DNA of 35,351 nucleotides from a virus. The notes beneath the pieces are model-generated. The model was not told the origin of the DNA. It did not search any database and saw nothing but the letters and a program-made list of their open reading frames with translations. The stretch spans positions 1-35,351 of IMG/VR virus record IMGVR_UViG_3300020472_000085. One strand, 5' to 3'. Position 1 is the first letter of the stretch. Every line of letters starts with the position of its first letter. The position numbers and the translations under genes are program-made. This document shows positions 12,301 to 34,075 of this stretch, in pieces.

Positions 12301-13910
12301 ATAAGTGCTTCATTCTTAATAAAAGTACCAGTAGTTTCATAAACAGTTAGACCTAATCCAGCACTAACAGAATCTTTAAGGAATGCAGTTGCACCACTAT
12401 TAGCACCCTCAATGAAAATGGGAGTAGATAATGTAGTGGGTTGATTTATAGTAATATTAGTTACTGTTTGTATATCATAAAGAGAAATATCCCATTCATT
12501 TAAAGGAGGATTTGAAGAGTCATAAGATCCAGACTCAAGTGCCATATCATAAACTCTAGCAACCCCTATTTCATTTCCTGCTACTGTTCTACTGTTTACA
12601 CCAACTCTTTGGTCTCTAAGACTTACTGTATAGGTATTACCAATTCCTATAGTTGGTGATCCATAAACATTATTCAGTTTTAAAGTTGGACCAGTATTGT
12701 ATATAATTTGCTGATTATCAGTAGTATTGACTGTTCTTGTTTTTGGTACATTCAAAAAAGTAGGATTTATTGTTTCAATTTCATAACCACGAACAAATGC
12801 TTTACCTGGAGATAATTTATAGAGTGCCAAATCTTCTGAAGGAGTATCTCCACCAGGAGTAAATTGCCCTTCTTGATATACTCCTCTATTTCCTAAATTA
12901 TCGTTTAAAGAGTTTAAAACGGCAAGATCAAATGGTCTAGTATAATAATCACCAGATTCAGCATAGGTTCTCCGCGCAAGAACATTATCTAAATCTTCAT
13001 AGAATACTCCACCATTTGGACCTACTCCAAAACCAGATCTAGAGACAGATTTTAAAACTCCAGCATTAATTGTTGCTAATTCTATAAAATTATCATCATC
13101 AAAATTATCTATTTCCTTTTTAAATAAAGAAGTTATAATTTTTAATCTATCAGCACCAGGAGCAGAATAATTATTATATCCTTGCGAATTATCATTTAGA
13201 GCTTCATTTAAATCTGCAGTTATTATTTGTTCTTGTACATTTAAACCAACTCTATAACTTGGTGTATTAGTGTACTGATCAAGAATAAGAGTTTCTGTGT
13301 CTACAGTAACAAAATTTCCATGAATAAAATATACACCTTCTTGAATCTGGAAAGCACATCCTGTTGCAGCTGCATCATTAGCAACAGTAATAGCAAATGG
13401 ACTTCCTGCCGCAATCGTTGTATTTCCAAGTAATCCTGAAGATATGGTTATATTACATATTAAATTTTCTCCATCAGAAAATACCTGAGTTGTATTATTA
13501 TTTGTATTTGATTTTATGTAATTAATGTATAAAGTAAGATTATTTCTTTCAGAATTTTCAGCAAGTAAAACTTTATCAACAACTGCAGTTACACCAGAAT
13601 CTTGACCAGTAATTTTTGTACCAACTAATTGATCAATATAAGCAGATACGGGAATTCCTTGAAAGTTATTTTGTAATTGAACACAGTAATATAACTGAGT
13701 ATATCCCGTATTTCCTGGTATTACTTTAGCACCTTCTTTAAAGAAATGTTGTCCAAACTTCTCAATTTGATTTTGTAGTATAGATTGAAGACTGGTTAAT
13801 TCTCTAGCTTGTACAGGATACCCAGGCTTAAACAGCACCTTATGAAAATCATCAGACGGATCAAAGTCGTCAAAGTATGGGGATACATTTAGATTGGTTT
13901 GCTGCGGCAT
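6336..13910 (-). CDS. Large structural protein, DUF4815-like (2524 aa)
   Basis: The N-terminus (PYFDDFDPSDDFHKVLFKPG, then ARELTSLQSILQNQIEKFG) and the region at about residues 1110-1240 (LPPYLYYPNQAKVKYLDHKR, LDDRIKNLEYYTALSTLE) look like the DUF4815 proteins of marine T4-like phages, which are virion components of unknown exact role. Residues about 1700-1865 form another conserved beta segment with aromatic strands. Further on, a 'TNAGLGY...GSGYQIGD' repeat near 1925-1990 and an IGNEIIEYT module near 2140-2180 resemble units in the gp7-like and neck proteins. The C-terminus (RLPSFRNYRVKIVMTSNSQ) is also typical. The gene starts 6 nt after the gp8 stop. By position it replaces the T4 gp9-gp10 block, so I infer a baseplate-peripheral, possibly receptor-contacting or fibre-anchoring protein. 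Confidence 0.8.
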   Translation of the reverse strand: MPQQTNLNVSPYFDDFDPSDDFHKVLFKPGYPVQARELTSLQSILQNQIEKFGQHFFKEGAKVIPGNTGYTQLYYCVQLQNNFQGIPVSAYIDQLVGTKITGQDSGVTAVVDKVLLAENSERNNLTLYINYIKSNTNNNTTQVFSDGENLICNITISSGLLGNTTIAAGSPFAITVANDAAATGCAFQIQEGVYFIHGNFVTVDTETLILDQYTNTPSYRVGLNVQEQIITADLNEALNDNSQGYNNYSAPGADRLKIITSLFKKEIDNFDDDNFIELATINAGVLKSVSRSGFGVGPNGGVFYEDLDNVLARRTYAESGDYYTRPFDLAVLNSLNDNLGNRGVYQEGQFTPGGDTPSEDLALYKLSPGKAFVRGYEIETINPTFLNVPKTRTVNTTDNQQIIYNTGPTLKLNNVYGSPTIGIGNTYTVSLRDQRVGVNSRTVAGNEIGVARVYDMALESGSYDSSNPPLNEWDISLYDIQTVTNITINQPTTLSTPIFIEGANSGATAFLKDSVSAGLGLTVYETTGTFIKNEALIFNGEQNGRIAIAITAENLKNVKSIFGSNDKAVGTASTFAANVMQSIEYHVGLATVGAALQGGIATVTAFDPNFVGIATVGDLLCWDDPAMGQYPTYARVTAVNATTVEIVGVTTVTGFNNGGLSTSTASTEVQDLKILQTDLQESSDNTLYTRLPKTNISNVDLTQASISIRKIYTVNISGNKLSEAVSCGSSETFLSFDEERYSLTRTDGQTESLSEEDFAFTDGTSLQIYNLGANDTGATLVTTIKKLKPKAKEKLKKRVNSIVVSKSRTEGSGIGTTTFNDGLDYGSGGYPYGTRVQDRTISLNVPDIVDIHGIFESVDNSDPSAPKMDLSNLTTSSTTTSELIDGELVIGQVTGAVAIIAEKVSNSSTQIVYIYKNDITFKEGEVVVFQESNVQAEISTLDTPSFDISSEYTYNIGQESTFYDYGTVKRKKDADAPTKRIKIYFMSGYYSSTDTGDITTVNSYDNFNYSTEIKDVNNVFNADIIDIRPRVSDYTVSESARSPLEFYGRSFDGAGQSAGNVLASDESILVSYSNYIGRIDRIFLTKDGKFQVSYGTPSDRPEKPSPVDEALEVATITLPPYLYYPNQAKVKYLDHKRYRMIDIKKLDDRIKNLEYYTALSTLETTTANMFISDGDGLNRFKAGFFVDNFTGFLAQEDQATVKNSLDRKYKQARPGHYTTSVDLMFGPVTNTDPSDDLNFTAVEGINVRKGNDIVTLDYSEVEYIKQSFGTRSESVTPFLISFWQGTLELTPASDTWVDTVRLESKVIEIEGDYERTMEDAARNMNVDPQTGFAPMVWNSWETNWTGSDIVETTRTRTTTSGGEWVGWAGQPGGGVRPAWGTRTTATVEETVRSGRRTGVESRTGMRTVVSEVFDRTSVGDREVSRDLIPFCRARNVEFVSQRMKPLTRMYAFFDGEDVTRFCVPKLLEISMTSGAFQVGEVVKGYIRPTGLNPVGAWSQGMEPTITFRVAQANHKIGPYNVPTKVYPENPYDGTPLSASYASTSTILNVDTYSLSAEAQGDYFGRVESGMVLKGVSSSAEATLTDLRLISDIGSDLIGSYYIPNPNNIDHPRFETGTKVFTLVNDPDNDQDSATTIAEETYTASGTLETVQENIVAVRNARIEQKQEFQERNVSEVLNGEVVASRNLGSTSQQVVIGWYDPLAQSFLVEDDTGVYLTKCDIFFRSKDDMDIPCVFQLRTMENGFPTQNILPFSEIVLSPEEIETSSDGSVATTINFRSPVYCESGKEYSIALASNSTKYSVYISRIGEQDLITQTYISNQPYLGSLFKSQNASTWEASQWEDLKFTLYRADFVESGSVELYTPELSKGNNQVPQLMPNSLVLQSKEIRVGLGTTVADGGLKPGNVVYQMGTQATGKLAGVAGTITSLAITNAGLGYSPSDGQITYSGVNLVTLTGNGRGATADITINSGSIVASGATINGPGSGYQIGDVVGFTTVGLTSQGRDGKLSIVSVGGTSELILNSVQGDFVVGSAKTMMYIDTANAVKTLNSVNGGDVQITSLTNVAGNDGLHIKVNHKNHGMYWTNNSVRISGAESDIKPTKLAVAYQLGDTGSISVDDASAFSSFENVGVGTTNTGFLRIGNEIIEYTAVSGNLIGGNIVREASRTGSGPSVSYPVGSPVYKYEMGGVNLARVNKIHDLNDVTKVDPLDYDSYNVKLDMSTKFDSNLANDDRSNDTGYPKLFLNANKSAGGYRIYASQNISYEAIRPIIHNVTVQGTTLSGELRTTTASSFSGSEIPWINNGFEPIAINQTNYLTTARTIASKENAAVQLAALPGEKPLQLRLLLNTSDSRVSPVIDAQRCSLITISNRVNNIISNYATDSRVNKIEDDPTACQYITKELILENSATSIKIMLDAHIHLDSDIRAFYAISDQEGFEPIFTPFPGYNNLDVRGQVINENANNGQSDKLVPKSNAYGFDAATLQFKEYTFSVDRLPSFRNYRVKIVMTSNSQVYVPRMKDLRVVALA

Positions 13911-17269: not shown

Positions 17270-20200
17270 TTAGACTATTTGACCGTCATAATTTTTAGAC
17301 TTAAGCGGTTTAGACCTTCTCACAATAGAACTGGTGCTAAGTCCAGATATACTACCGCGAGTATATGCAGTATATTCATTGGATTCATTCCTTGATACTA
17401 CATCAATTTTACCCCAACTAAAGTCTCCAATATAATAAGAAGTAGTGAATGCGCCACTCCATCCTGAACCTTGTCCCTGACCAGCAGAGGAGAAGTCATA
17501 AGTTTCACTACTAAATCCTGCTTTAGTTGAAGCAAAGGTAATTGTTGATACACCAGCAATTTTTGCAGTTACTCTTCTAAATGTTGTAGTTCCAATACCT
17601 GTAAGAGCACCAGTTATATGATTAGAAACTGTATCAACTTGATAGATATTATCTACAAATAATGTACCAATACCAATAATATCACCTGAGGAATTTAAAG
17701 AATTAAGAGTCGTATCAGCAAATCCAACATATGTATTCTTAGTTACAAAGTAATCACCTACCTGAATACTACTTAAAGTAACAGCCGTACCAACAAGATC
17801 AGTATTTCTTAACCAAGAATCATATGGAATATGAATATCAAAGATTAAACTCTTATCAATATCTGCTTCACCACCTTCTGTTCCAAATCCAACAATAATT
17901 CCGTCATCTCCACTATAAGAACCTACCGTATCTGTTTCAGCAATTAATTGTGGTGGTTGAATAAGGCAGACTGGTGGATCATCCTGTGAATACTGTGTTC
18001 CACTATTAGTAATTTCAATTCCAGTAACAACACCAACGGGATTAATAAAGGATCTACCAATTGCGGTGGTTCCAACACCAATTTTACCAAATACTAGTGA
18101 TGGAGCAGAAGTATATCCACCTCCACCATCTGTTATATCTACTGAGGTAACAATGCCACTAGTAGTTACAAGACATGTTGCAATTGCACCTACTTTAGTA
18201 TCCTGAGAAATCATCATTATCTTATCTTGCCATGTACTACGAATAGAAGCATCGGATATTTCATTTGTAGTATTATAAAGGGGTCTTAAACTATCAACAT
18301 AAACTACAGTAGATCCTATTCCAACAGTCTTGATAATATATGAACATGGATTAACATTAGCATTATATAATTCTCTAGATTTTCCAACTTCTTCTTCATT
18401 TATAATCTTATCTTCAGTTTGTCTAGTCCATACAACAGGTCTTAAAAGATCTTCATTTTGAGTATTACCAGGACCAAAATAAGGTACAGTTTGTGCTGTA
18501 TCTGTAGAAGATACCGTAGTAACACCTCTAATATTCTCCTTAAGATAATATGGTTCAGATCCATTTTCTATTCTTAGATCATCACCTTGTTTAACAGTTT
18601 CAAGAATTTCTCTAGTTACAACATCGCTCGAACCACTTCCTTTATAGAAAATAACCTTAGATATATCTCCTGCACTAGGTGGTTCTGTAAATACAACTAC
18701 ACTACCTCCATCAAATTTATAAGCTTTACCAGGTACTTGAAGAATATCATTAATAAAGATGAGAACAATATCTTGAACAATAATCTTAGAACCTTTACCT
18801 GCTCTAATAGATATTTGCTGTCCTGCTCTTCTTAATTGGAAAGCAACAGTTTCACCATCAAATAAACTATCCCAATCATCAAGATTCTCTAATTCTCCAA
18901 TAGACCATCCAGTAAACTTATCTGTAAATTCTTTGGTAACTTCTAATTGGAATTCGTTGTAATAAGTGCTTGTATCAGTTGGAATGCCTGTTGTTCCTCC
19001 ATAAGGAATAGTAAGAATTTCTCCTACTCTATAACCACTTCCAGTAATATTAACACGGAAATCTGTTACACTTGATCCTTGTCCAACGACAACATCAACA
19101 GTTGCATTAGTCCCAACTCCTGCAGATGTAGAAGAATATTCTAATGGTAAATTAGTATATGAAAGTGGAGAATCAATAATAACAAATGGAGGATTAACTT
19201 GACTATATCCACCCTTAGAAATTGTAATTGCTACACCAGTCAAAGTACCATTAGATCCAATAGTAGCAGTTCCAACCCATTGAGTATTAGGAGTTGTCAA
19301 ACTGGTTGTTCCAACACCTACATTAACTGTTTGACCAATACCAGATCTATATCCAGATCCACTATAACCAATACTAACTGAAGCAACAGTTCCTGCAGTA
19401 GAAACAACCGCAGTACCACCTGCAGCAACTAATGGTTGATATCCATGACCCTCAGTTGAACCTACAGAAAGAATTACACCACCAATAGGAAGAGTTGAAA
19501 GATTAACATCAGATGATACTGAAGATGCTGTTCCTGTAAAGGAAATACTTGTAATTCCTGCATTTTCAGTTAAGCTATAATCTTTAGATGGTGTTTGGAA
19601 CACATCATTAATTAAGATTACCGCATTTTCTGTTGCAATTCCAGTTATATTAGAACTATTTGTTTTTAAATCAAAGTCAGATGTAGATCCATCAAACTCA
19701 TTAGAAAGACCATCAAAAACATAATTTTGATAGTAAGTTTCGTTACTAGAATCTGTAATTCCAGAACGCAAGAATACTCTTCCATTAAAGTTCGATCCTG
19801 TTGCTACTCCTACCCAATCTCTAGAATCTGGTGGATTAGTAGTACTACTTAAAGGAGTATTGCCATATGGTGCTTCTGTAAAGTTAAGAACATTATCAAC
19901 AATATTATAATTACCAGTAACTTTCGTTACCAATGCTCCTGTAGAATGTCCTGCAAGGGTAGTACCTAACCATTCTCTCTTAACTCTAAATCTATTAGTG
20001 CTTCCAACACCAACAGATTCAATCTTCATTATTTCACTATTAACTTTAACTAAATCTGCACCAGTAATAGAACTAATTCCAGTAAAGTAAATAAGATCAT
20101 CAGTAGTAGTTGCTGCATGAGCAAGAGTAGTTGTTACTGCTGTAGATACTACAGGAGATTGAATAATATTATCCAAACTAAGAATAACCTTAGCATTCTG

Positions 20201-23200
20201 ATTTGTAGAAACAAATCTATGAGAAGTACCAACACCAACACTTGTAAGATCTGTTGGTACAGCAATATTCTGTAGAGATTTTGCAGCAGTTTCTGCTATT
20301 TTAATTTTATCATCATTAACTTTAATAACAAATAAATCAGCAGGTAAAAGTGTAGTGGTTCCAACTCCAACAAATCCATTTGTTTCAGCAATTCCTATTG
20401 CACCAACACTACCAGATCCATCATGAACATATTCGATCTGTTCACCAGTTTTAAAGAAGTGATTTGGAATTGTAATAGTGTTAGTAGTAACATCTACAAT
20501 ATCAGAATCATTTCCTTCAAAACTTCTATTAAAAATAGGTTCAGTTTGATGCTTTAATTCAAATGCTCTCTTAAGATTATTTTCTGTTCCCTCATATAAA
20601 CCATACTGAGTTTGTATATCTACATTACTACCAATATCCATATTATCTCTAGCATCATCTTGAATTTTGAATGCATTCATATATGTTTGAGCTTCAATTG
20701 GGAATCTTACACCACCCATCATTCCTGCTCTAGGAGTACATATAAGTTGAACAGTAGCAATTCCAGCAGTAGAATCAGAAACTATTCTAGTTCCTACTGT
20801 TGCAATTCCTGATGATTTTAAAGGTGTTCCTACTTCGCCATATTGAGTATCAAAAGTGCCACCATCATCAGTAGAAACAATATAATCATCCACAACTAAA
20901 ATTTCACTGAAATGATATGAACCCTCTTGCGAAGTTTCTGTTAATTGAATTGCAAAATATGCAGCATCATATCCATCTACAGTTGATGAACTCTGACTAA
21001 TATATTCTCCAATAACAGTCGGATCAGAACTAGTAGTAGTTCCTATTCCAGTTGATTGAGTTCTTAATCTTGCATGTTTTAAATCTAATACTGCTGATGA
21101 TCCACTATTAACTGTTGCAGCTAATGAAACTATAGCAGTATTAACAGTAGCAGTTGTTCCTATTCCCGCATTTGTTTGATCAGGGAACCAATCAACTTTT
21201 ACATTAGATCCATCATAATATGCAGAGTATGTTCCAAGACCTAATGATGGATTTGATTGATCTTCAACCTCACTAAGTAAATTACCATATTCACTTACCA
21301 TTACTTCATTAGTATCATCATCATGAATAAGATTTAATTCATCAAATTCAAATTGACCACCACTAAGTTTTGTAGTATCCGCAGTGATAGACAATAATAT
21401 CTTAGCTGAGCGATATGTACTTGCAATACCTACAATATTAATTCCAGTTGTAGTAGCAGTAGCAACATTTGCGCTAGTTGATTCAATTTTACAAATTCCA
21501 AAAGCAGTACTACCAATACTTAATAAAGTATCATCTAAATTATAAGAAAGAGTTGCAATATCAAAATCATTTACTTTATAATTTCTTGGATACCATAATA
21601 GTCTTCCAGTATTTCCAAGAATATTAGCATCAAATGATCCTAAATCATATACAGTTTCTATTCTTCCATATTGCTGGAAATATAAATCAGAATTATCATG
21701 AAGTATATCAATAACTTGAAGTTGTCTTTGTTGAGTAAACCTTCTATCCTTAACATAAGCAAAATATTTAACTGCTCTAGTTGTAGATACATCAAATTCA
21801 GCAGCTATGCTAAATGCTGTTGATCTAGGATTACTATTAAATTCTCCACTCACATCATCTATAGAGAGAACCCTATTACCCATCGATTCATCATAATCAA
21901 GAAGAATTCTACTAGAAAATACTATTTCATCAGATGCAACTCTAGAAGATACATTTATAGAATTTTCTTTCACTAAATCAAAATCATACACGGTATTTAA
22001 ATCACCAAAACCAACTAAATGATTTACAACATCATATTGCGTTACTTCAGTAGATAATCCAACTGTCATTGAATTTAAATTCAATGAGTCTACTTGCATA
22101 TCAGAGAATTTTACATGACCTAAAGTATGATTTAATGCACTTACAACATCATTCCAAGTCTCATAAGATACTTTAGACCTTAAGGAATATGAGAAATTCT
22201 GATAATACAGACTATCCTGTATTCTCTGCATATTTGTATTCAAAAAACCAGAATCGGTTTCCCATCCTTTTTGAACCAATGAATAAGCACCTAATTTAAA
22301 GTCAGAATCATATTTTGTTACTGAAGAAGCAACACCATGAGTATCTGATGATTCTCCTACAATAACATCCCCAACTTTAAAGTTTTCGGTAGTTGCTATT
22401 TTTAATAATCCAAGTTTCTTATCCCATTTCTCAACAACACCACTAGCAGAATCGCAAATAACACTTTCTCCATCAAGATAATCTTCTACACCCAATTTGA
22501 CATTAAATATTGGGAAATATTTTTCAGGTATAATTCTTCCTATAGAAGTAGGACTATCAAATTGACCAGGAGTTACTTCAGAATTTAAATCAGAATAATA
22601 ATCATATAAACTAAAAGTAACAATACCAAGACCACCAATATTGGGATCAACTTCTGTTAATTCAAATAATTTGTAATCATATTCAGCAGAATTATATCCT
22701 CTAGCTGTTGAACCAACACCAACACTAATATTTTCAATTAATACTTTATCTCCAACTATAAATGGGAAAGAACCAGCAGTACTAAACCCAACAGATAAAG
22801 TAACAGATACATCTTTAGTTGTAGTATTAAATCCTACAGTATTAATTCCAACTCCATTAGTATTATCAGTAGGAATAATAATAGGAGGAACATTACTAAG
22901 ACCCTTAGATTCTTCAAGGATACTTACATTTGAATCACCTAAAGTATACTTAAGAACTATATCTTCATCTAATTTTCTTGTTATTCCATCAAATACCTTA
23001 AGTGTAGGTGCTACAGAATATCCTCTTCCTACAGAAGATATTCCAACAGATTTAATAACAGCAAGATTATCTATTGTTACTAGTTGAGGTAATCCAACAC
23101 TCGGTCTAAGTGTATTATCTGAAGGGAAATTATATCCAATATCTTTAATCTTCGTTCTTCCAATTTTTCCAATAGTTTTACTAGAGACCTCAGCACGAGC

Positions 23201-26200
23201 ATTTTTACCAATATCAGAAGTAATAGTAGAAATTCCTGGAAGAGAATAATAATTTTCTCCACCATCAGTTATATTAAATTCTGATATAGAACCATAAGCA
23301 GTAGCAGAATCTGTTGTATATTTTAAATCAGATGAAGTGGAAATATAAGATGCTTTTTCTGGTAACTTAGCTAAGGTATAATTAAATGTATTTGTTGCAC
23401 CAACTGAAATAGTATGTTTTCCATTATATCCACTTTCTACAACTTGTAATTGATTTGCGGAAATAACATCAGCATTTCTAGTAACCTGCTCTTTAACAGG
23501 AGGTATAGTACCTTCATATAAAGGATCAAAAGTATAATATAAAATTTCTGGAATATCTTTATTAACAGTTAAAGTAACATTAGCATTTGAATCTACACCA
23601 GCATCTCCAGTTCTTTGAACACTAAACTGGTCAGTTAATTTATTAGTATCCCATATTTTTATAAGATTTGAATCACTATAGAAATTAAATTTAAATGCTG
23701 GATATGAAGTACCTTGACTAATATACCCTAAAGATGAATCTGATAAGTCAAATATAGCAGATTGATTTTTATATACCTTTACTGGTGGATTTATAGGATT
23801 AATTGTTCCTGCAGAAAGACTAGTAATGCCAACCGTAGCAGGTTTTAATAATTTAGAATTATAAGAAGTATCGCATAATTTAAATTTATTTTCATCAATT
23901 CTTACAATAAAATATATTGCATTATTAGAAAGACCGCCGCATGGAATAGATGCTGTATGAATAACTTTTTGTCCAGTTACAAATCCATGATTTGATATAC
24001 TAATTGTATTAGATGTAGTGTTAACTCCACCAGCAACAAAGTCTTTTGGATCAATTATAATAGATCTATTATAATCATTATATTTTACTGTAAATGTAGT
24101 TGAAATATTTCCAGGACTTACATTAATTTCAACATTATCGTCTGTTAATAATCCATGACTTGCTCCTGTTGATACTGTTACTTTATTTCTAGAAATTTCT
24201 GCAGTAATTGGAGTGTAATTAGTTTTAAAACTATGCCATATACCAGTTCCAATTCCTGAGAATAATAAAGTTGAAGAATTTTTAAATGTTGTTCCAACAC
24301 CAACTATAGAACTACCAGCAGTATTCAATCCAACTACAACAGTTGATATTCCAATTAAATCTTTACTATGCTTATACGCATATAAAGTTTGACCATCAGT
24401 TAATGTTGATATACCACCACCACTATTTTGAACATCAATACCTGCTCCTCTATTAGGAGAATATGTTAATTGATCACCTGTTACCAAACCATGATCTTTA
24501 ATCCAAATAGTTTTAGTTGGAATAAAGACTTGAGTTAGTCCTAAACCTGGACTTGGATATCCTGGTTGAGAATAGAATTGAATTGTTGTTCCAATACCAA
24601 CACCAGAAGCAGTTCCTATCGCAACAGATTCATTTGGATTAAAATAAATTTGCTTATTTACTTTACAATCATATGTTGTTTTAAATCCTGCATTTATAAC
24701 TAATTTTCTTGAATCTTCATAAAGAACTGTAGTTACTGTATGTGCTGCTCCTGCAGTTCCTTCTACAGCTCTAAGAGCTCTAATTCTTGAATATTCAGGT
24801 TCAATATTTAAGACTTGAATTTTCTCAGAATTTATTCTAAGAATATCATTTTCTTTAATTTCTGGGTATTCTAATCTTCCATTAATATCAAAATAAGTAA
24901 CTATTCCAGTTACACCATCAGACCCAATTCCAGTTGGTTGAGTTCCTACACCAGTTAATACAAAAGTATCTGTAGTAAAACCTACTTGATAAATCCCACC
25001 AATTTTAGAGGATGTTGTAGATAATCCAGAAACATTAATTATATCTTTAGATGCAAATTGATGAGGTTTAGTAGACCAAAGAATATATTCACCCTTTTGA
25101 ACTCCAGGATAGACTTCAACACCACTTATACTACTTGTAGCAACACTTATATTACTTAAAGGTTTACCACCAATTATAGAAACTTTAGCAGCAGCCCTAT
25201 TTCCTTTAGTTCCAGTATTATCAAAAACTACTGCATCCCCAACACGATATAATTCCCCTGATGTTGTAAGTCCTATTTTATCAATAGTACCAGGTTTTCC
25301 TGATTTAACATCTAAAGTTTGAGATAAATCATCAGGAATATAAAGATATTCATATTCTAAATTACCTTCAATAAGGTTATAAAAATAAGTATTTCTAGAC
25401 CATTCATCATTATTTAAATTAATTTGATCTTGATTTGAATAAGAACTAAAATTAAACTTATTAGGTGTAGATTTATAATTCTCCCCAATTAAATAAGGGA
25501 ACACTGGCCTTTTATAACCAGCAAATGGTCCTGCTGAATCTGCATTACTATCATTAATAGTAGCAAAATAAGCATAAGTTCCATTTGGATATTCTGGAGT
25601 AACACAGAATCTTCCATTATTTTCATCAAGAGTTTTTGGATCACTTACTTTAGTAAAACTATAATCTTCAATAAAAAATCCTACTGGAAATTCATTTTGA
25701 GGGGGTCTACTAGGTTTTAAATCAACACTATAAGCAGACTTCATTTGCGCTACTACACCACCAGTTTGTGTAGAATATCCATAAGGACCATAAATTGGAT
25801 TTCCATCGTATGCCCACCCAATAATAGGAGAATGATCATCTGATGCAACTTCTAAACTATTAACTCTTCGTAAGTCAGATTTTCCATATAGTGTATTTCC
25901 TTCTTGATCTGTTCCAAATACTGCTTCCCTAAGTTTTCTAGGTGCATATAAATGAGAATACTGAAGTCCCCTATCAATATTAAATTGATCAGCAATAATT
26001 CCATCATCTGTACTAAAATTATCAATATGTCTTTGGAAAAGATTTAATCTCCAATTTTGAATATCTGCTCTAAATTCAGCACCTTCTCCTGGAACAATAA
26101 CACTAATACTAGTATTTTCTTGAGTATATCTCTCACCACCTTCAATTACCTTAATGGATGTTATTGTATTGTCAGTAAGAACTGGAGTAAGTACTGCACC

Positions 26201-29200
26201 CACACCATCACCAGAAATAACTAAATCTGGTGGAGAATTATAATTAGATCCTGTTGCTAAAATTAATATTTCAACAATCTTTCCATCATTAATAATTGGT
26301 CTTAATTGAGCACCTGAACCAGCAATTAAAGTAACATCAGGTTGTCTATCAAAATTAATAATTTCAGATGATCCATATCCAACACCATTTTTGGATACAT
26401 GAACAGAATTAATACTACCCCTAATTATTGGTTGAACTTCAAGCTGGAAAGTATTAGTTCCTATTGATGAAATTCCAACTTTTCCAGTTATATTTACAGT
26501 AATATCTGGGTAATTAAAAGTATGAGTCCCTACACCAACAGATGTAAAATCAATATACTGTTTTGTTCTATAATAAAACTCTTTATCAGTGCTAAAACCA
26601 ACTTGTGATAATTTAAATTCAGCATTATCAACTCTTGTTAAATAATATTCTGTCCCATCTGTTAAACCACCAAGAGCAGTTCCTTCAGCAGTGTATTTAA
26701 CTATTTCACCAGAATCATAACCATGATTAGGAATTTGGACGCTATTGAATGCAGTATTAATTCCACTTCCTGACTCAGTTGGAGTACTTCTCTTCTTATT
26801 TGCATATCCACTTCCACCATTAACTACATTAAGAACATCTACTATAAATTTCTTATTAAGTGCTCTTATAGATTGTTTTCCAATACCATAAGAAGTTAAA
26901 GATATGGTACCAAGTCCAGCAATAGCATTTGCTTCAGAAGAATGGAGTTTTATTGTAGAATTGTTTACACTAGTAACAAAGTAGTGAGAATGTGTAGTAA
27001 TTCCACCAATGTTAGTTTGTCCATTAGTTTCATAAATTACTTCTTCAGCATTTTTAAATTTATGATAAGTATTAAATCCAATAGTATTGTCGGTAAGACT
27101 AACCCAAGCACTTGTTTGTCCAGCATGAGTGTTAGAATCTGCAAAAAAGTCAACTGAATGACTAATTTGTCTCATATCTACATCAACAATTGCTCCCGAA
27201 CCATTACCACCGCTAATGGTTACAATTGGAGTTTCTTCATAATCAAAACCACGATCAAGAATTCTAAGAGCAGATAAAGATCCTTCAACTGCTGCGATTG
27301 CTGTTGCTCCAGTACCTACACTATCTTTAATATGTACAACTGGTGGATTAATTACATCATAATCGGCACCCGTACTACTAACTTCAATTTCATTAATTTG
27401 TCCAAATGTAATAACATCACCTGCTTTATAATTTAAAACTTGAACACCATTTACTAATATTCCAGTAAATCCAGGAGTAGTTGCAACTATATCACTATTA
27501 TCATCTTGAGGAAGAGCAATTTCTCTTAAAATATTTTGAGATTGTAAAGTTTTAAATCTAAAATCATAAGGTTCAATTTTACTATTTGTTACGGTAGTAT
27601 CCTCAGTAAGAGTAACAAAAGTTCCGTCAGAAATATTAGTTCTACTAGTTGCAAGTTTTATTTTAGAATTGCTTACCCTGTATATAAAATAAAGTCCTTC
27701 AGTAATTAATGCTGGTCCATCAATTATTCTAGATTGAGCATTTCCAAAAGTATCATAATATTCTTCCTCAATTCTTTCTGGAGAATAATAAATTGCATCA
27801 CCAGTATAGAATCCATGATCCTCAGTTAATGGGTTAATTAAAAATTCAGATCCTATAAAAGTTCCAGAGAATGTAACAGTCTGACCATAGACATCTAATG
27901 GTTGAGCATTATAAGAAGGAATGGAAGGAGAAGCAACTAAGTAATTTTCCCCTTTTTTATAAACATTCTGTACATTACTAGAATAAATTATAGAATTTGG
28001 AAAATTATTAGACTCTGTTTTTAAAATAAGTCTTCTAATATAATAAGTGTCAGGTATCTCATCCGATAATTGTCCCTGACCTTTAATTTCAATAGATCTA
28101 TTAGAATTAACTTTAAGTACAGTAGAAGTTTCCCTTGTTTCATTTCCCAGTATAATTGATGCTCTATCTCCTACTTTAAAACAATGATCTACATTTAATC
28201 CAATTTTATAAGTCCAATCAGAGCTGTCAATTACATCTACTGATTTTACTTTGTAAATTGGAGAAATATTATAAAACCAATTCTTTCCTTTAACTGTTCC
28301 ATCAGAAATACCTAAAGTTTTAATTTGTGCAGTATCATCTTCTTCATAATTTACTGCATTAATTGGAGAATCAAATTCTTCTAATACTGCATTAATTCTT
28401 ACTTTAACAGTTTTTGTAGTATCTACAAAAGATTGTCCATAAACATAAGTATTAATTCCAATATTTGTTGCATTATTAATAGTTCCATTTATACCAGAAC
28501 ACCCAAAGAATTGAGTTGTATTTTTAGAAGCATAAGAAGTAACTCCAACTGTTCCATCACTATAATTTACATATAATTCACCACTTGTAGGAAATCCAAC
28601 AGTAGAATCTACATCGATATAAGTTGTACCTGAAGATACTCGTCCAATTACCCTAGTTTTTGGATGAGTAGCAAATTCACCATATATTGATCCATCAACT
28701 CTACTATCTCTATCATATCCAGCATCAATACTAAGTTTATAAAAAGTTTGACCTATTCCAGTATCTCCAGTATTAATAGGTTCTACTGAAGTAATAGGTG
28801 CATATGCTTTAGTATAATCTCCATAAGTATATGCATTTTGGAATAAAGTAGATTGTTCAAGGTCTACTGGATTTCCTTCACCATCAATAGATTCAACAAC
28901 AAAATCTTTTGTGAGTCTATAATTAGCATTTGATGGAGTAAAGAGAAAATCTCTTGGTTTTATAATTCTTACATCTTCATTATATAAAGCTTTAAATAGA
29001 ATTTCAAAAGATTTATCAGTACCTTTACTAAGATAAAAATCTTTTGCTTGTTTTATAAAAATATCTTGATTTAAATCTTTATGTAACTTTCTATTCTCTA
29101 ATCCAGGTAATAGTTGATGTTTTGTTTTAAGTAAAAATTCCTTAAGAAACAGATTACTTAGATTCTTGACCTGAGACCCTGATGTATGCTCCTCAGAGGT

Positions 29201-29635
29201 GCTTGATTTAAACTCTAGTACATCTGGACTATTTACTGTTCTATAGGAAGTTATACCTGAAAATCCACGCACACAACCAGTAAAGCAAGTTGTTGCAGTT
29301 CCAGTATAAGTAATGATTTCATTATCGATCTGTAGCAATCCATAAGATGAAGGAAATCCATATGTTCCTGTTGGATTCTTTACCATATCAACAGGAATGA
29401 TATCAGTAAAGGAATCAATGGATGTAGATAATCCAACTATCTCAGTTAGATTTGTTTGTTCACCAACTTTTATATACTCATCAATATTTTGAATCAAATC
29501 AATAGATCCACCTTGATACTCTTGACCAAGATAGTATTGCTTTAAAAAATCAGAAACTAATGGAAATTCAGTCTTCGTGTAAGCAGGAAGCTGATTCTGA
29601 ACTATGTTACTGAATTGGATTCTCTTATCTGACAT
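17270..29635 (-). CDS. 7: Giant baseplate wedge protein, gp7-like (4121 aa)
   Basis: The frame is intact for 12.4 kb, over a third of the window. Near residues 198-223, KDFYLSKGTDKSFEILFKAL followed by YNEDVRI matches the T4 gp7 block YDFYSTKGIEASYKFLFKVL...YNEEVEI, and gene order 25-6-7 agrees, so I call a gp7 homologue; gp7 links gp6 to gp8 and gp10 in the wedge. T4 gp7 is only about 1030 aa. The remainder is beta-rich: 'GxGY' modules near residues 748, 790, 1078, 1125, 2125, 2208, 3425, 3480, 3530, 3842 and 3882; 'DNEIITYT...RGFSG' modules near 103, 1600 and 3200; and a YHYH-like domain near 1265-1385 (GWAYDGNPIYGPYG, LDENNGR, YAYF, FPYLIG). The ATG follows the gp6 TAA with no gap. Whether all added domains are baseplate or fibre-like is unknown. 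Confidence 0.75.
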   Translation of the reverse strand: MSDKRIQFSNIVQNQLPAYTKTEFPLVSDFLKQYYLGQEYQGGSIDLIQNIDEYIKVGEQTNLTEIVGLSTSIDSFTDIIPVDMVKNPTGTYGFPSSYGLLQIDNEIITYTGTATTCFTGCVRGFSGITSYRTVNSPDVLEFKSSTSEEHTSGSQVKNLSNLFLKEFLLKTKHQLLPGLENRKLHKDLNQDIFIKQAKDFYLSKGTDKSFEILFKALYNEDVRIIKPRDFLFTPSNANYRLTKDFVVESIDGEGNPVDLEQSTLFQNAYTYGDYTKAYAPITSVEPINTGDTGIGQTFYKLSIDAGYDRDSRVDGSIYGEFATHPKTRVIGRVSSGTTYIDVDSTVGFPTSGELYVNYSDGTVGVTSYASKNTTQFFGCSGINGTINNATNIGINTYVYGQSFVDTTKTVKVRINAVLEEFDSPINAVNYEEDDTAQIKTLGISDGTVKGKNWFYNISPIYKVKSVDVIDSSDWTYKIGLNVDHCFKVGDRASIILGNETRETSTVLKVNSNRSIEIKGQGQLSDEIPDTYYIRRLILKTESNNFPNSIIYSSNVQNVYKKGENYLVASPSIPSYNAQPLDVYGQTVTFSGTFIGSEFLINPLTEDHGFYTGDAIYYSPERIEEEYYDTFGNAQSRIIDGPALITEGLYFIYRVSNSKIKLATSRTNISDGTFVTLTEDTTVTNSKIEPYDFRFKTLQSQNILREIALPQDDNSDIVATTPGFTGILVNGVQVLNYKAGDVITFGQINEIEVSSTGADYDVINPPVVHIKDSVGTGATAIAAVEGSLSALRILDRGFDYEETPIVTISGGNGSGAIVDVDMRQISHSVDFFADSNTHAGQTSAWVSLTDNTIGFNTYHKFKNAEEVIYETNGQTNIGGITTHSHYFVTSVNNSTIKLHSSEANAIAGLGTISLTSYGIGKQSIRALNKKFIVDVLNVVNGGSGYANKKRSTPTESGSGINTAFNSVQIPNHGYDSGEIVKYTAEGTALGGLTDGTEYYLTRVDNAEFKLSQVGFSTDKEFYYRTKQYIDFTSVGVGTHTFNYPDITVNITGKVGISSIGTNTFQLEVQPIIRGSINSVHVSKNGVGYGSSEIINFDRQPDVTLIAGSGAQLRPIINDGKIVEILILATGSNYNSPPDLVISGDGVGAVLTPVLTDNTITSIKVIEGGERYTQENTSISVIVPGEGAEFRADIQNWRLNLFQRHIDNFSTDDGIIADQFNIDRGLQYSHLYAPRKLREAVFGTDQEGNTLYGKSDLRRVNSLEVASDDHSPIIGWAYDGNPIYGPYGYSTQTGGVVAQMKSAYSVDLKPSRPPQNEFPVGFFIEDYSFTKVSDPKTLDENNGRFCVTPEYPNGTYAYFATINDSNADSAGPFAGYKRPVFPYLIGENYKSTPNKFNFSSYSNQDQINLNNDEWSRNTYFYNLIEGNLEYEYLYIPDDLSQTLDVKSGKPGTIDKIGLTTSGELYRVGDAVVFDNTGTKGNRAAAKVSIIGGKPLSNISVATSSISGVEVYPGVQKGEYILWSTKPHQFASKDIINVSGLSTTSSKIGGIYQVGFTTDTFVLTGVGTQPTGIGSDGVTGIVTYFDINGRLEYPEIKENDILRINSEKIQVLNIEPEYSRIRALRAVEGTAGAAHTVTTVLYEDSRKLVINAGFKTTYDCKVNKQIYFNPNESVAIGTASGVGIGTTIQFYSQPGYPSPGLGLTQVFIPTKTIWIKDHGLVTGDQLTYSPNRGAGIDVQNSGGGISTLTDGQTLYAYKHSKDLIGISTVVVGLNTAGSSIVGVGTTFKNSSTLLFSGIGTGIWHSFKTNYTPITAEISRNKVTVSTGASHGLLTDDNVEINVSPGNISTTFTVKYNDYNRSIIIDPKDFVAGGVNTTSNTISISNHGFVTGQKVIHTASIPCGGLSNNAIYFIVRIDENKFKLCDTSYNSKLLKPATVGITSLSAGTINPINPPVKVYKNQSAIFDLSDSSLGYISQGTSYPAFKFNFYSDSNLIKIWDTNKLTDQFSVQRTGDAGVDSNANVTLTVNKDIPEILYYTFDPLYEGTIPPVKEQVTRNADVISANQLQVVESGYNGKHTISVGATNTFNYTLAKLPEKASYISTSSDLKYTTDSATAYGSISEFNITDGGENYYSLPGISTITSDIGKNARAEVSSKTIGKIGRTKIKDIGYNFPSDNTLRPSVGLPQLVTIDNLAVIKSVGISSVGRGYSVAPTLKVFDGITRKLDEDIVLKYTLGDSNVSILEESKGLSNVPPIIIPTDNTNGVGINTVGFNTTTKDVSVTLSVGFSTAGSFPFIVGDKVLIENISVGVGSTARGYNSAEYDYKLFELTEVDPNIGGLGIVTFSLYDYYSDLNSEVTPGQFDSPTSIGRIIPEKYFPIFNVKLGVEDYLDGESVICDSASGVVEKWDKKLGLLKIATTENFKVGDVIVGESSDTHGVASSVTKYDSDFKLGAYSLVQKGWETDSGFLNTNMQRIQDSLYYQNFSYSLRSKVSYETWNDVVSALNHTLGHVKFSDMQVDSLNLNSMTVGLSTEVTQYDVVNHLVGFGDLNTVYDFDLVKENSINVSSRVASDEIVFSSRILLDYDESMGNRVLSIDDVSGEFNSNPRSTAFSIAAEFDVSTTRAVKYFAYVKDRRFTQQRQLQVIDILHDNSDLYFQQYGRIETVYDLGSFDANILGNTGRLLWYPRNYKVNDFDIATLSYNLDDTLLSIGSTAFGICKIESTSANVATATTTGINIVGIASTYRSAKILLSITADTTKLSGGQFEFDELNLIHDDDTNEVMVSEYGNLLSEVEDQSNPSLGLGTYSAYYDGSNVKVDWFPDQTNAGIGTTATVNTAIVSLAATVNSGSSAVLDLKHARLRTQSTGIGTTTSSDPTVIGEYISQSSSTVDGYDAAYFAIQLTETSQEGSYHFSEILVVDDYIVSTDDGGTFDTQYGEVGTPLKSSGIATVGTRIVSDSTAGIATVQLICTPRAGMMGGVRFPIEAQTYMNAFKIQDDARDNMDIGSNVDIQTQYGLYEGTENNLKRAFELKHQTEPIFNRSFEGNDSDIVDVTTNTITIPNHFFKTGEQIEYVHDGSGSVGAIGIAETNGFVGVGTTTLLPADLFVIKVNDDKIKIAETAAKSLQNIAVPTDLTSVGVGTSHRFVSTNQNAKVILSLDNIIQSPVVSTAVTTTLAHAATTTDDLIYFTGISSITGADLVKVNSEIMKIESVGVGSTNRFRVKREWLGTTLAGHSTGALVTKVTGNYNIVDNVLNFTEAPYGNTPLSSTTNPPDSRDWVGVATGSNFNGRVFLRSGITDSSNETYYQNYVFDGLSNEFDGSTSDFDLKTNSSNITGIATENAVILINDVFQTPSKDYSLTENAGITSISFTGTASSVSSDVNLSTLPIGGVILSVGSTEGHGYQPLVAAGGTAVVSTAGTVASVSIGYSGSGYRSGIGQTVNVGVGTTSLTTPNTQWVGTATIGSNGTLTGVAITISKGGYSQVNPPFVIIDSPLSYTNLPLEYSSTSAGVGTNATVDVVVGQGSSVTDFRVNITGSGYRVGEILTIPYGGTTGIPTDTSTYYNEFQLEVTKEFTDKFTGWSIGELENLDDWDSLFDGETVAFQLRRAGQQISIRAGKGSKIIVQDIVLIFINDILQVPGKAYKFDGGSVVVFTEPPSAGDISKVIFYKGSGSSDVVTREILETVKQGDDLRIENGSEPYYLKENIRGVTTVSSTDTAQTVPYFGPGNTQNEDLLRPVVWTRQTEDKIINEEEVGKSRELYNANVNPCSYIIKTVGIGSTVVYVDSLRPLYNTTNEISDASIRSTWQDKIMMISQDTKVGAIATCLVTTSGIVTSVDITDGGGGYTSAPSLVFGKIGVGTTAIGRSFINPVGVVTGIEITNSGTQYSQDDPPVCLIQPPQLIAETDTVGSYSGDDGIIVGFGTEGGEADIDKSLIFDIHIPYDSWLRNTDLVGTAVTLSSIQVGDYFVTKNTYVGFADTTLNSLNSSGDIIGIGTLFVDNIYQVDTVSNHITGALTGIGTTTFRRVTAKIAGVSTITFASTKAGFSSETYDFSSAGQGQGSGWSGAFTTSYYIGDFSWGKIDVVSRNESNEYTAYTRGSISGLSTSSIVRRSKPLKSKNYDGQIV

Positions 29636-31566: not shown

Positions 31567-31968
31567 TTATCTGGTGGATTGCAAAGCAAATTGTAGTTCT
31601 TGTGGAGGAACATCTGCCCCTATAATGTCATAAATTATAAGTACATCAAATTGATTGTTCTCAAAGTTCGGAAATGCCTCTACAGTAGTCAATCTAACTC
31701 GTGGTTCATAAGTTTCAATTGAATTTGTAATTTCATCAACGATAAGATCTGCTCCTAATTCATCCATATTCTCAAAAAGAGAAGCAGAAATCCTAGATCC
31801 AAAGTTTTGTTCAAAAAATTTCTCACCAGGAAGGGTAAATACAATATTTCTGATTGAACGAGCAATTGCATTTTCGTTTTTAAGCCCAATAAGATCGAAA
31901 TTCAGGGGATTTACCTGAAAAGTCATGCTTATATCTTTAAAACCGGGACTAACCCTTTCTAGAGGCAC
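31567..31968 (-). CDS. 25: Baseplate wedge protein gp25
   Basis: gp25 is a small wedge protein conserved in contractile injection systems (GPW_gp25 / TssE-like). It binds gp6 and gp53 and links the wedge to the first sheath ring. The 133-aa length equals T4 gp25 (132 aa). Visible family features are NENAIARSIRNIVFTLPGEK near residue 31, FEQNFGSRISASLFE near 52, and the hallmark EPR motif at residues 88-90 (ETYEPRVRL) followed by a beta hairpin ending in VLIIYDI. A late-promoter box lies 20-36 nt upstream, so gp25 probably opens the baseplate transcript. T4 gp53 and gp5, often near gp25, are not in this window. Confidence 0.95.
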   Translation of the reverse strand: MPLERVSPGFKDISMTFQVNPLNFDLIGLKNENAIARSIRNIVFTLPGEKFFEQNFGSRISASLFENMDELGADLIVDEITNSIETYEPRVRLTTVEAFPNFENNQFDVLIIYDIIGADVPPQELQFALQSTR

Positions 31969-31987
31969 TATATTATAGCGATTATTG

Positions 31988-32004
31988 TTTATTTATTAAG
32001 GATT
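31988..32004 (-). promoter_or_regulatory. Late promoter box before gp25, shared with gp8
   Basis: The minus strand reads AATCCTTAATAAATAAA, identical over 17 bases to the box before gp8 (15484-15500). It contains AATAAATA, the T4-type late core, at 31990-31997. It lies 6 nt after the stop of the 63-aa gene and 20 nt before the gp25 start, a fitting place to start the baseplate operon. Confidence 0.65.
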
Positions 32005-32009
32005 TATCA

Positions 32010-32201
32010 CTAAAATTCTGCAGAGGGTATCATTTGGTCATCATAGTCCAATCCTTCATAGAAATCACCGTCTTTTTTCTTCTCATAAAGGTCATTTTGG
32101 ACTTTTCTATCACTTTTTCTAGGTGTTATTGCATCATTTGCAATTTCACGAAGCATTTTTTGATGTTGATCGTTAGCCATATTGTCTAAAAAGTCGTTCA
32201 T
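32010..32201 (-). CDS. Small charged hypothetical protein (63 aa)
   Basis: The product is polar and charged throughout: an N-terminal helix candidate (DFLDNMANDQHQKMLREIAND), then a basic patch with PRKSDRKVQ, then an acidic, aromatic C-terminus (DFYEGLDYDDQMIPSAEF). There is no cysteine, membrane segment or known motif. It lies between the oxygenase gene and gp25, just upstream of the gp25 late promoter. GAAGAA lies about 12 nt before the ATG, a poor ribosome site. Real coding is supported by compact fit between neighbours (30 nt and 41 nt gaps) and sensible composition. A small regulatory or assembly factor is possible, but nothing in the sequence decides it. Confidence 0.65.
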   Translation of the reverse strand: MNDFLDNMANDQHQKMLREIANDAITPRKSDRKVQNDLYEKKKDGDFYEGLDYDDQMIPSAEF

Positions 32202-32231: not shown

Positions 32232-32759
32232 TTAATATTTTATGGGTACTTGCGACTGTATACAATTACCAGCAAGCACAATTCTCCCTTCACATTTATT
32301 TTTAGGTACATGATGTCTTAAATGTCCAGGAAAAATTACTAATTTACCTTCTTCTGCCTTAATTCTCTTACCACTATCACTAAAAACTAAAGGTGAAGAC
32401 CCTCTAGGACAATCTATAAAGTAAACAAAACTCCATATAGACAATTCATGTTGATGTTTTCGTGCATATTCATCTTTATCATAGATGGCAAACCATGTTT
32501 CAAACCAATTTAAACGATGCCAATACCCGTTTTGCTTCAATCCATATTTCTGATTAAGAATATATTCTACCCATTCACATATAAAGGTAATATTAGGACT
32601 AGAAGTTTGCCAATCTGAATGTTTTCCATGTACATTTGTTTGATATGACAAATTAAAATTCGCATTTTTTACATCTTCTAGTAACCTTCCCTTTAAAGAT
32701 GCATGGTTAGGGTAGGTTTCAACAAATACTTCTAATTTTTGGGGTATTAATAGTTCCAT
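32232..32759 (-). CDS. Putative 2-oxoglutarate/Fe(II)-dependent oxygenase
   Basis: This 175-aa protein resembles the short 2OG-Fe(II) oxygenases common in T4-like cyanophages, which hydroxylate an unknown substrate using O2 and 2-oxoglutarate. Visible features of the double-stranded beta-helix are HQHELSIWSFVYFID at 102-116 (His102/His104 as metal-side ligands), CPRGSSPLVFSD at 117-128, GKLVIFPGHLRHHVP at 138-152 with the distal His149 or His150, and GRIVLAGN with Arg159 as the likely 2OG-binding residue. HxH in place of the common HxD is seen in related phage subfamilies but leaves the exact ligand set open. The ATG is only 2 nt after the T-run of an intrinsic terminator and lacks a Shine-Dalgarno site; there is no other in-frame ATG near the N-terminus. 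Confidence 0.75.
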   Translation of the reverse strand: MELLIPQKLEVFVETYPNHASLKGRLLEDVKNANFNLSYQTNVHGKHSDWQTSSPNITFICEWVEYILNQKYGLKQNGYWHRLNWFETWFAIYDKDEYARKHQHELSIWSFVYFIDCPRGSSPLVFSDSGKRIKAEEGKLVIFPGHLRHHVPKNKCEGRIVLAGNCIQSQVPIKY

Positions 32760-32761
32760 AT

Positions 32762-32783
32762 AAAAAAGGGAGCCTTAACTCCC
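32762..32783 (-). terminator. Intrinsic terminator overlapping a stop codon
   Basis: On the minus strand GGGAG-TTAAGG-CTCCC forms a five-pair GC-rich hairpin followed by six Ts. The TAA stop of the 50-aa basic protein gene (32775-32777) lies in the loop, and the T-run ends 2 nt before the ATG of the oxygenase. Structure and U-tract fit a classical rho-independent terminator that would close the small-gene transcript. Confidence 0.8.
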
Positions 32784-32927
32784 TTGTCCTCTACCTCTTT
32801 TTCTTGCTTTATTTCGGGAAGTAGCAGCATACTTTGTATGTTTGCCGTTTCCTTGACGACTTTTTTTGGGAACTGACTCTACAAAAGTCGAAGATCCCCA
32901 TGATCCTGATTTAGTTTTAACAGGCAT
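32775..32927 (-). CDS. Small basic hypothetical protein (50 aa)
   Basis: The frame runs from an ATG at 32927 to the TAA inside the terminator loop. The product begins MPVKTKSGSWGSSTFVESVP and its second half is very basic (KKSRQGNGKHTKYAATSRNK, then ARKRGRGQGS), so it may bind nucleic acid. I believe similar approximately 50-aa proteins recur in cyanomyoviruses, but I have not searched. AGGA lies 9 nt before the ATG, a good ribosome site, which together with the terminator at its end supports a real gene despite its size. It is preceded by two small coupled genes and is probably the last gene of the right-hand transcript. Confidence 0.75.
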   Translation of the reverse strand: MPVKTKSGSWGSSTFVESVPKKSRQGNGKHTKYAATSRNKARKRGRGQGS

Positions 32928-34046: not shown

Positions 34047-34075
34047 ATTATACACTGAAATATGTAGTGTGTCAA
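34047..34075 (-). promoter_or_regulatory. Consensus sigma70 promoter before the glycosyltransferase gene
   Basis: The minus strand has TTGACA (34070-34075), a 17-bp spacer and TATAAT (34047-34052): 12 of 12 consensus bases at ideal spacing. The predicted start near 34040 leaves a short leader with AAGG before the ATG at 34023. The -35 box overlaps the TGA of the preceding 57-aa gene. Host RNA polymerase would be expected to use it early in infection. Confidence 0.85.

Follow-up and report, generated by a model that had tools for sequence, protein, structure and literature searches.

A putative intrinsic terminator with a docked cargo ORF behind it, placed between the small gene phrog_516 and the baseplate wedge gene gp25, is well supported by the related sequences compared here. 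The stop codon of phrog_516 lies in the loop of the hairpin, and the ATG of the cargo ORF, a 2OG-Fe(II) oxygenase, stands 2 nt past the T-run. For the expression of the oxygenase we prefer an explanation to which we give an even chance of being right: the conserved hairpin would terminate transcription, a ribosome finishing phrog_516 would aid read-through, and reinitiation would follow on the cargo ORF, itself presumably a gain. The window, i.e., the whole stretch of DNA analysed, is a complete IMG/VR record of 35,351 bases; judged from its proteins, the source is a T4-like marine cyanophage. The order on the minus strand is phrog_1574, small ORFs, phrog_516, the oxygenase, a 63-aa ORF, gp25 and a 641-aa ORF, the last of which occupies the place of gp6 (gp6 was named by position, as in P-SSM2). 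The features of the locus are:

34047..34075, minus strand: sigma-70 consensus promoter TTGACA-17-TATAAT, 12/12 matches, predicted to function as such
32775..32927, minus strand: phrog_516, a 50-aa gene of unknown function, whose final codons, GGG AGT, supply the 5' arm of the hairpin
32766..32785, minus strand: terminator hairpin AAGGGAGT-TAAG-GCTCCCTT, with the TAA stop (32777-32775) in the loop
32762..32767, minus strand: terminator T-run, TTTTTT; pairing of its first two T's with the AA in the 5' arm is possible
32232..32759, minus strand: 2OG-Fe(II) oxygenase, 175 aa, PF13759, phrog_81, the cargo ORF; ATG 2 nt past the T-run
32010..32201, minus strand: 63-aa gene; where the oxygenase is missing (seven loci), its leader comes directly behind the terminator
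31990..31997, minus strand: late-promoter-like AATAAATA ahead of gp25 (motif NATAAATA from PMC2984593, in excerpt)
31567..31968, minus strand: gp25 baseplate wedge gene

The promoter at 34047..34075 may drive an operon that ends in the 50-aa gene. The minus strand carries three perfect sigma-70 consensus promoters within 1.2 kb (35178-35150, 34463-34434 and 34075-34047) and also two giant ORFs of 4121 aa (17270-29635) and 2524 aa (6336-13910). In contigs L001 and L002 the 50-aa gene is directly preceded by a 53-aa gene (2340-2501 and 2111-2272, respectively); only a short remnant of it was found by eye at about 32970-32928 (minus strand) of the window, where the gene was seemingly lost. A 26-aa ORF, MMYFIGLAMVLTIIAFVYYLGIYNPH, at 33048-32968 (minus strand) overlaps the stop of a 56-aa gene, recurs in L169 (50-130), and probably encodes one membrane-spanning stretch.

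The hairpin (32785-32766) has 8 pairs, including one T-G, and a folding energy of -10.7 kcal/mol; hairpins of seven relatives ranged from -10.7 to -13.2 kcal/mol. Its stem begins 11 nt before the end of the 50-aa ORF, with the stop codon in the loop, and is followed by six T's (32767-32762), AT, and the ATG (32759-32757), leaving 15 nt between the phrog_516 stop and the oxygenase ATG. This geometry, with TAA in the loop and a T-run ending 2 nt before the oxygenase ATG, had been described in an earlier sequence-only reading and was confirmed. With a GC-rich stem of at least 5 pairs and a U-run at once behind it, the structure looks like an intrinsic terminator, and the stem is close enough to the phrog_516 stop codon to be covered by a ribosome standing there.

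In dinucleotide shuffles of the local sequence (about 100 nt), a hairpin with T-run arose in 6/5000 cases under a strict rule (at least 5 pairs, at least 4 of them GC, a loop of 3-8, and 6 T in 8); the same rule yielded 82 sites, versus 9 in shuffles, across 40 stretches drawn at random from 112 cyanophage stretches. A lax scan of 10.4 kb gave no discrimination (5 terminator-like sites versus 3.5 expected), the 46-nt fold did not stand out (z = -1.9, with 9/200 shuffles equally good), and the 111-nt fold had z = 0. Conservation is better evidence for the hairpin than these fold and scan tests. A chance fold was rejected from conservation together with the 6/5000 result, and the same two observations back the call of a terminator made earlier for this site.

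The gene pair, phrog_516 followed by the oxygenase, was found in six contigs (the window, L001, L002, L022, L024 and L169) representing four distinct sequences, L022, L024 and L169 being identical across 200 nt of the junction. All six hold GGGAG...CTCCC, TTTTTT, AT and ATG; the distance from T-run to ATG is identical throughout, so the spacing that had been proposed as a point of comparison among related phages is kept. Three versions of the sequence between GGGAG and CTCCC were seen: TTAAGG, TTAATG (L002) and GTAATA (L022). Three further loci (L066, L068 and L075), with gp25 proteins 44-47% identical to that of the window, have an overlapping GGGAGAT...ATCTCCC terminator, then a late-promoter-like TATAAATA, then gp25. 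Where a terminator overlaps phrog_516, the arm-forming Gly codon is GGG in 9/9 loci, compared with 2/73 of the other loci (Fisher 2e-10, kinship not corrected for). A scan of viral contigs for CTCCCTTTTTTATATG returned 70 stretches, and in some of these a hairpin is present and that ATG opens an ORF.

The comparison with loci that have no oxygenase (L005, L006, L010, L011, L013, L014 and L017) places the ends of the cargo. In these seven, [A/G]TGTGTAAATAGA comes next after the T-run, and the 63-aa gene begins 34 nt past the T-run, its product being 84-92% identical in 7/7; their terminators differ in sequence and stand 2-5 nt past the phrog_516 stop. The window, L001 and L002 read T-run-AT[ATG...stop]TGTTAAATAGAAA, and in L022 the oxygenase stop falls inside the matching sequence GTGTAAATAGAAAA, as ATGAATGTGTAA-ATAGAAAA. 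Since matching leader sequence follows the oxygenase, the extra DNA is the ORF alone, from start codon to stop codon, and the abutment of hairpin and ATG represents the left junction of the cargo ORF. We infer that the direction of change was gain of the oxygenase. Use of a downstream in-frame start, an outcome that would have told against the earlier reading, is unlikely, given that several homologues (including L022, L084, L087 and L092) share an N-terminal motif from this ATG.

What stands behind phrog_516 varies among phages. Matches to phrog_516 by tblastn (E up to 0.01) occur in 397 phage records. We compared 82 loci, namely the best 80 of at least 584 confirmed matches in IMG/VR, plus the window and L169, with ORFs called by rule at a minimum of 45 aa; the shares are those of this set and not of all cyanophages. 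Within this set (best 80 of at least 584, plus two), a terminator stood at -11 or 2-5 nt from the phrog_516 stop in 47/82 loci, the next ORF started on the stop (overlap of -4 or -1) in 28/82, and neither was found in 7/82; removal of identical contexts left 43, 24 and 7, respectively. The stop overlaps in 28/82 suggest direct translational coupling at those loci. Genes behind phrog_516 include PF13759 and PF13640 oxygenases, a heme oxygenase and a formyltransferase; unrelated metabolic cargo follows it in L053, L079, L057, L064, L080 and L009, and begins on its stop codon in L053 (heme oxygenase), L057 and L064 (PF13640 oxygenases) and L079. A family scan of 10 proteins encoded behind phrog_516 left those of L047, L021 and L074 without a family above the cut-off. 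Ten isolate genomes with phrog_516, inspected by eye over 72 nt past its stop, had no GC-rich hairpin with T-run, and the terminator is thus confined to some lineages; S-BM1 and S-RIM2 have an AT-rich inverted repeat after the stop. For cyanophages, the gp46-gp25 interval has been described as a hot spot of small genes (PMC3037559, in excerpt), and the likeness to our locus is that of variable genes just ahead of gp25; the differences are that gp46 is absent from the window, where the place was identified by gp25, and that the excerpt of PMC3037559 does not mention this terminator.

No -10-like or late-promoter match was found just ahead of the oxygenase ATG, and no -10-like hexamer (A at 2, T at 6) at the hairpin in the window, L001 or L002; the hairpin base of L022 has a 4/6 match only (TATCGT). 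A weak promoter-like site within phrog_516 (CAAAAT, 71 nt upstream of the ATG, accompanied by a 4/6 match to the -35 element) is present in L001 and L002 and not in the window, and a 9/12 promoter match lies ahead of phrog_516 at 32971-32943. With no promoter from the terminator to the ATG and no -10-like hexamer at the hairpin, read-through would be the simplest source of oxygenase mRNA. We propose that the conserved intrinsic terminator closes an operon, probably an early one, that would comprise the sigma-70 promoter, phrog_1574, the small ORFs and phrog_516, the last codons of phrog_516 supplying the 5' arm. A ribosome finishing phrog_516 would cover the hairpin, polymerase could then pass and transcribe the oxygenase, and the same ribosome could restart at the ATG 15 nt past the stop. 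The lack of an evident promoter or a conserved Shine-Dalgarno (SD) sequence, together with the 28/82 loci (best 80 of at least 584, plus two) in which the next ORF stands on the phrog_516 stop, favors read-through with coupling; on these grounds the earlier suggestion that translation of the small gene controls the oxygenase is plausible, with the coupling itself being an extrapolation from sequence.

Precedent for such an effect differs between hosts. In E. coli, a terminator placed several bp behind a stop codon was almost completely repressed, and uncoupled translation abolished the effect (PMC4824070, in excerpt); in B. subtilis, polymerase is reported to outrun ribosomes, giving uncoupling (PMC7858274, in excerpt). 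If the polymerase of the cyanophage host likewise outruns ribosomes, termination would go ahead as usual, leaving leaky transcripts as the sole source of the oxygenase. The E. coli tR2 series and the B. subtilis cases, as described in those excerpts, resemble the window in having a GC-rich stem with a U-run within reach of the terminating ribosome; they differ from it in that the window leaves just 2 nt between the U-run and the next gene, too little for a promoter or for an SD at a suitable distance.

Plain compaction would need less: an ordinary leaky terminator, oxygenase made at a low level, and a start without an SD, the translation of phrog_516 being irrelevant. We consider this possible, though the chances are against it. 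Terminators just after the phrog_516 stop, with quite different genes behind, in 47/82 loci (best 80 of at least 584, plus two) agree with compaction, as does the recurrence of starts 0-2 nt behind T-runs. SD usage also agrees: by a generous rule (four bases within -18 to -5), 359/1336 ORFs of at least 150 aa in 11 cyanophage genomes passed and 977/1336 failed, a count in which the first ATG was taken as start and spurious ORFs are included, and a missing SD is therefore ordinary in these phages. However, the stem starts within phrog_516, where a terminating ribosome would cover it; GGG usage tracks the overlap as well, which shows only that the hairpin matters. Closeness of stem to stop was rejected as a special property of the window, given the same 47/82 loci of the best-80-plus-two set and the 13/15 phage T4 terminators with an upstream stop that lie within 12 nt of it; since T4 terminators are mostly near stops, closeness alone is no sign of ribosome control. 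Cyanophage terminators are unlike those of T4 in this respect: of the 128 that follow a stop within 200 nt, 31 were at 12 nt or less from it and the median was 23. The idea that cyanophage terminators avoid stops, making the one in the window special, was accordingly only partly true, with 31/128 so close and T4 mostly close. The 128 stop-to-stem distances look bimodal (24 at 0-8 nt, 2 at 13-16 nt and 41 at 17-25 nt).

Ribosome binding could instead use a split site, as in T4 genes 25 and 38: on folding, the hairpin would bring a GAGG that lies upstream of it from 28 to 8 nt of the oxygenase ATG. We judge this improbable. SD-like words before the oxygenase ATG are AAGG, GGAG and GAGG, ending 13, 19 and 28 nt upstream. 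The claim that the oxygenase has no SD was nearly right in that none is conserved; the window AAGG would nonetheless pass the generous rule, and it is absent in L002 (TTAATG) and L022 (GTAATA). The hairpin accounts for 20 of the 28 nt that separate GAGG from the ATG, the distances in T4 go from 27 to 11 nt for gene 25 and from 22 to 5 nt for gene 38 (PMC3014915, in excerpt), and the window, L001 and L002 all retain GAGG. On the other hand, GTGG replaces it in L022, L024 and L169, and GAGG simply falls within AGA GGA, which encodes the Arg-Gly of a conserved protein motif. The T4 system (PMC3014915, in excerpt, citing Nivinskas 1999; Malys and Nivinskas 2009) is alike in that, in a T4-like phage, a hairpin separates the AUG from an upstream SD-like sequence; it differs in that the window hairpin has a U-run and holds the upstream stop, and in the absence of GAGG from L022, L024 and L169.

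Starts directly behind U-runs were surveyed in 11 cyanophage genomes (L174-L206, L219-L297), with genes called by a simple codon score so that the counts are approximate. Of 203 intergenic terminator-like sites, 99 had the next start within 150 nt, and T-run-to-start distances among these 99 were 0-2 nt in 11, -3 to -1 nt and 3-5 nt in none, and 6-8 nt in 2, with a second peak of 41 at 27-38 nt. The binomial probability for 11/27 within -3 to 26 nt was 3e-5, or 0.0017 (8/24) with homologous sites collapsed, by eye and in the 0-2 nt class alone. A -10-like box (5-6/6) at the hairpin base was present in 9/11 of the 0-2 nt class and in 0/16 at 3-26 nt, 6/43 at 27-40 nt, 4/29 beyond, and 21/104 without a near start; over all sites it was found in 40/203 versus 11/203 at a control position. 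The 0-2 nt class also had a -35 match of at least 3 in 7/11 and at least 9/12 overall in 5/11. In 10/11 of the class the deposited annotation agrees with that ATG as the start of the gene; for SSM2_272 of S-SM2 it uses an in-frame ATG further upstream. Two more cases, P-SSM2 212713 and Bellamy 185088, came from a simpler ORF caller, both annotated at that start. The survey method applied to T4 gave 23 sites, and among 10 next starts two followed a short T-run at 0 nt; thus, the 0-2 nt class is not demonstrably confined to cyanophages. Starts behind a U-run are a recurrent feature, in most cases combined with a promoter-like box at the hairpin.

Such a hairpin-U-run-AUG leader could be the main role of the window hairpin, i.e., a 5' structure of the oxygenase mRNA. 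In its favor are the 11/99 surveyed terminators with the next start at 0-2 nt, 9/11 of them with the -10-like box, and a 44%-identical oxygenase in L314 (about 340-400) preceded by TATACT, hairpin, TTTTTT and A before its ATG. The window shares the AUG spacing of the promoter-hairpin-U-run-AUG class (2 nt) and lacks its -10-like box; L001 and L002 have no such hexamer either, and L022 has 4/6 only, which makes a leader role very unlikely here. In the form seen in the window, without the box, the hairpin is built from the coding end of the upstream gene. Bellamy talC, purC of ACG-2014d and S-SKS1, and the Syn9 gene after psbD are the closest cyanophage examples of a start 0-2 nt behind a terminator-like U-run; they differ from the window in the box, present in 9/11 of the class (talC being without it). 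The sites lie at 198273 for Bellamy talC, 161550 for ACG-2014d purC and 168349 for the Syn9 gene. Other cyanophage starts behind a T-run seem to be served by a promoter of their own, and coupling would not be the sole way to use such a start. We found no publication on cyanophage terminators abutting start codons in the open-licence literature.

The earlier alternative of a leaderless oxygenase mRNA starting at or near the ATG is scarcely credible and was rejected as unsupported, for although almost no intergenic DNA and no SD at the usual spacing would suit it, the place where a -10 or late promoter should lie is taken up by the hairpin arm and T-run, with no match there.

Taking the preferred read-through and reinitiation together with the survey, we offer tentatively, and as a generalization that may well prove wrong, that in marine T4-like cyanophages a hairpin with U-run could act as a two-way junction, serving as the end of the upstream transcript and as the SD-less leader of the next gene, whose AUG is 0-2 nt behind. 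Where a -10 box stands at the hairpin base, the following gene would have a promoter of its own; in the form of the window, with the stop in the loop, the terminating ribosome would decide, and cargo ORFs could dock without regulatory DNA. Through the broader set of starts at 0-2 nt (talC, purC, genes after psbD), the question can be tested in cultured phages, e.g., Syn9 and Bellamy. Cyanophages carry many auxiliary genes, and the route by which a newly gained ORF is expressed is seldom clear; if ribosome-controlled read-through is true, cargo would be switched on simply, without a promoter or ribosome binding site of its own.
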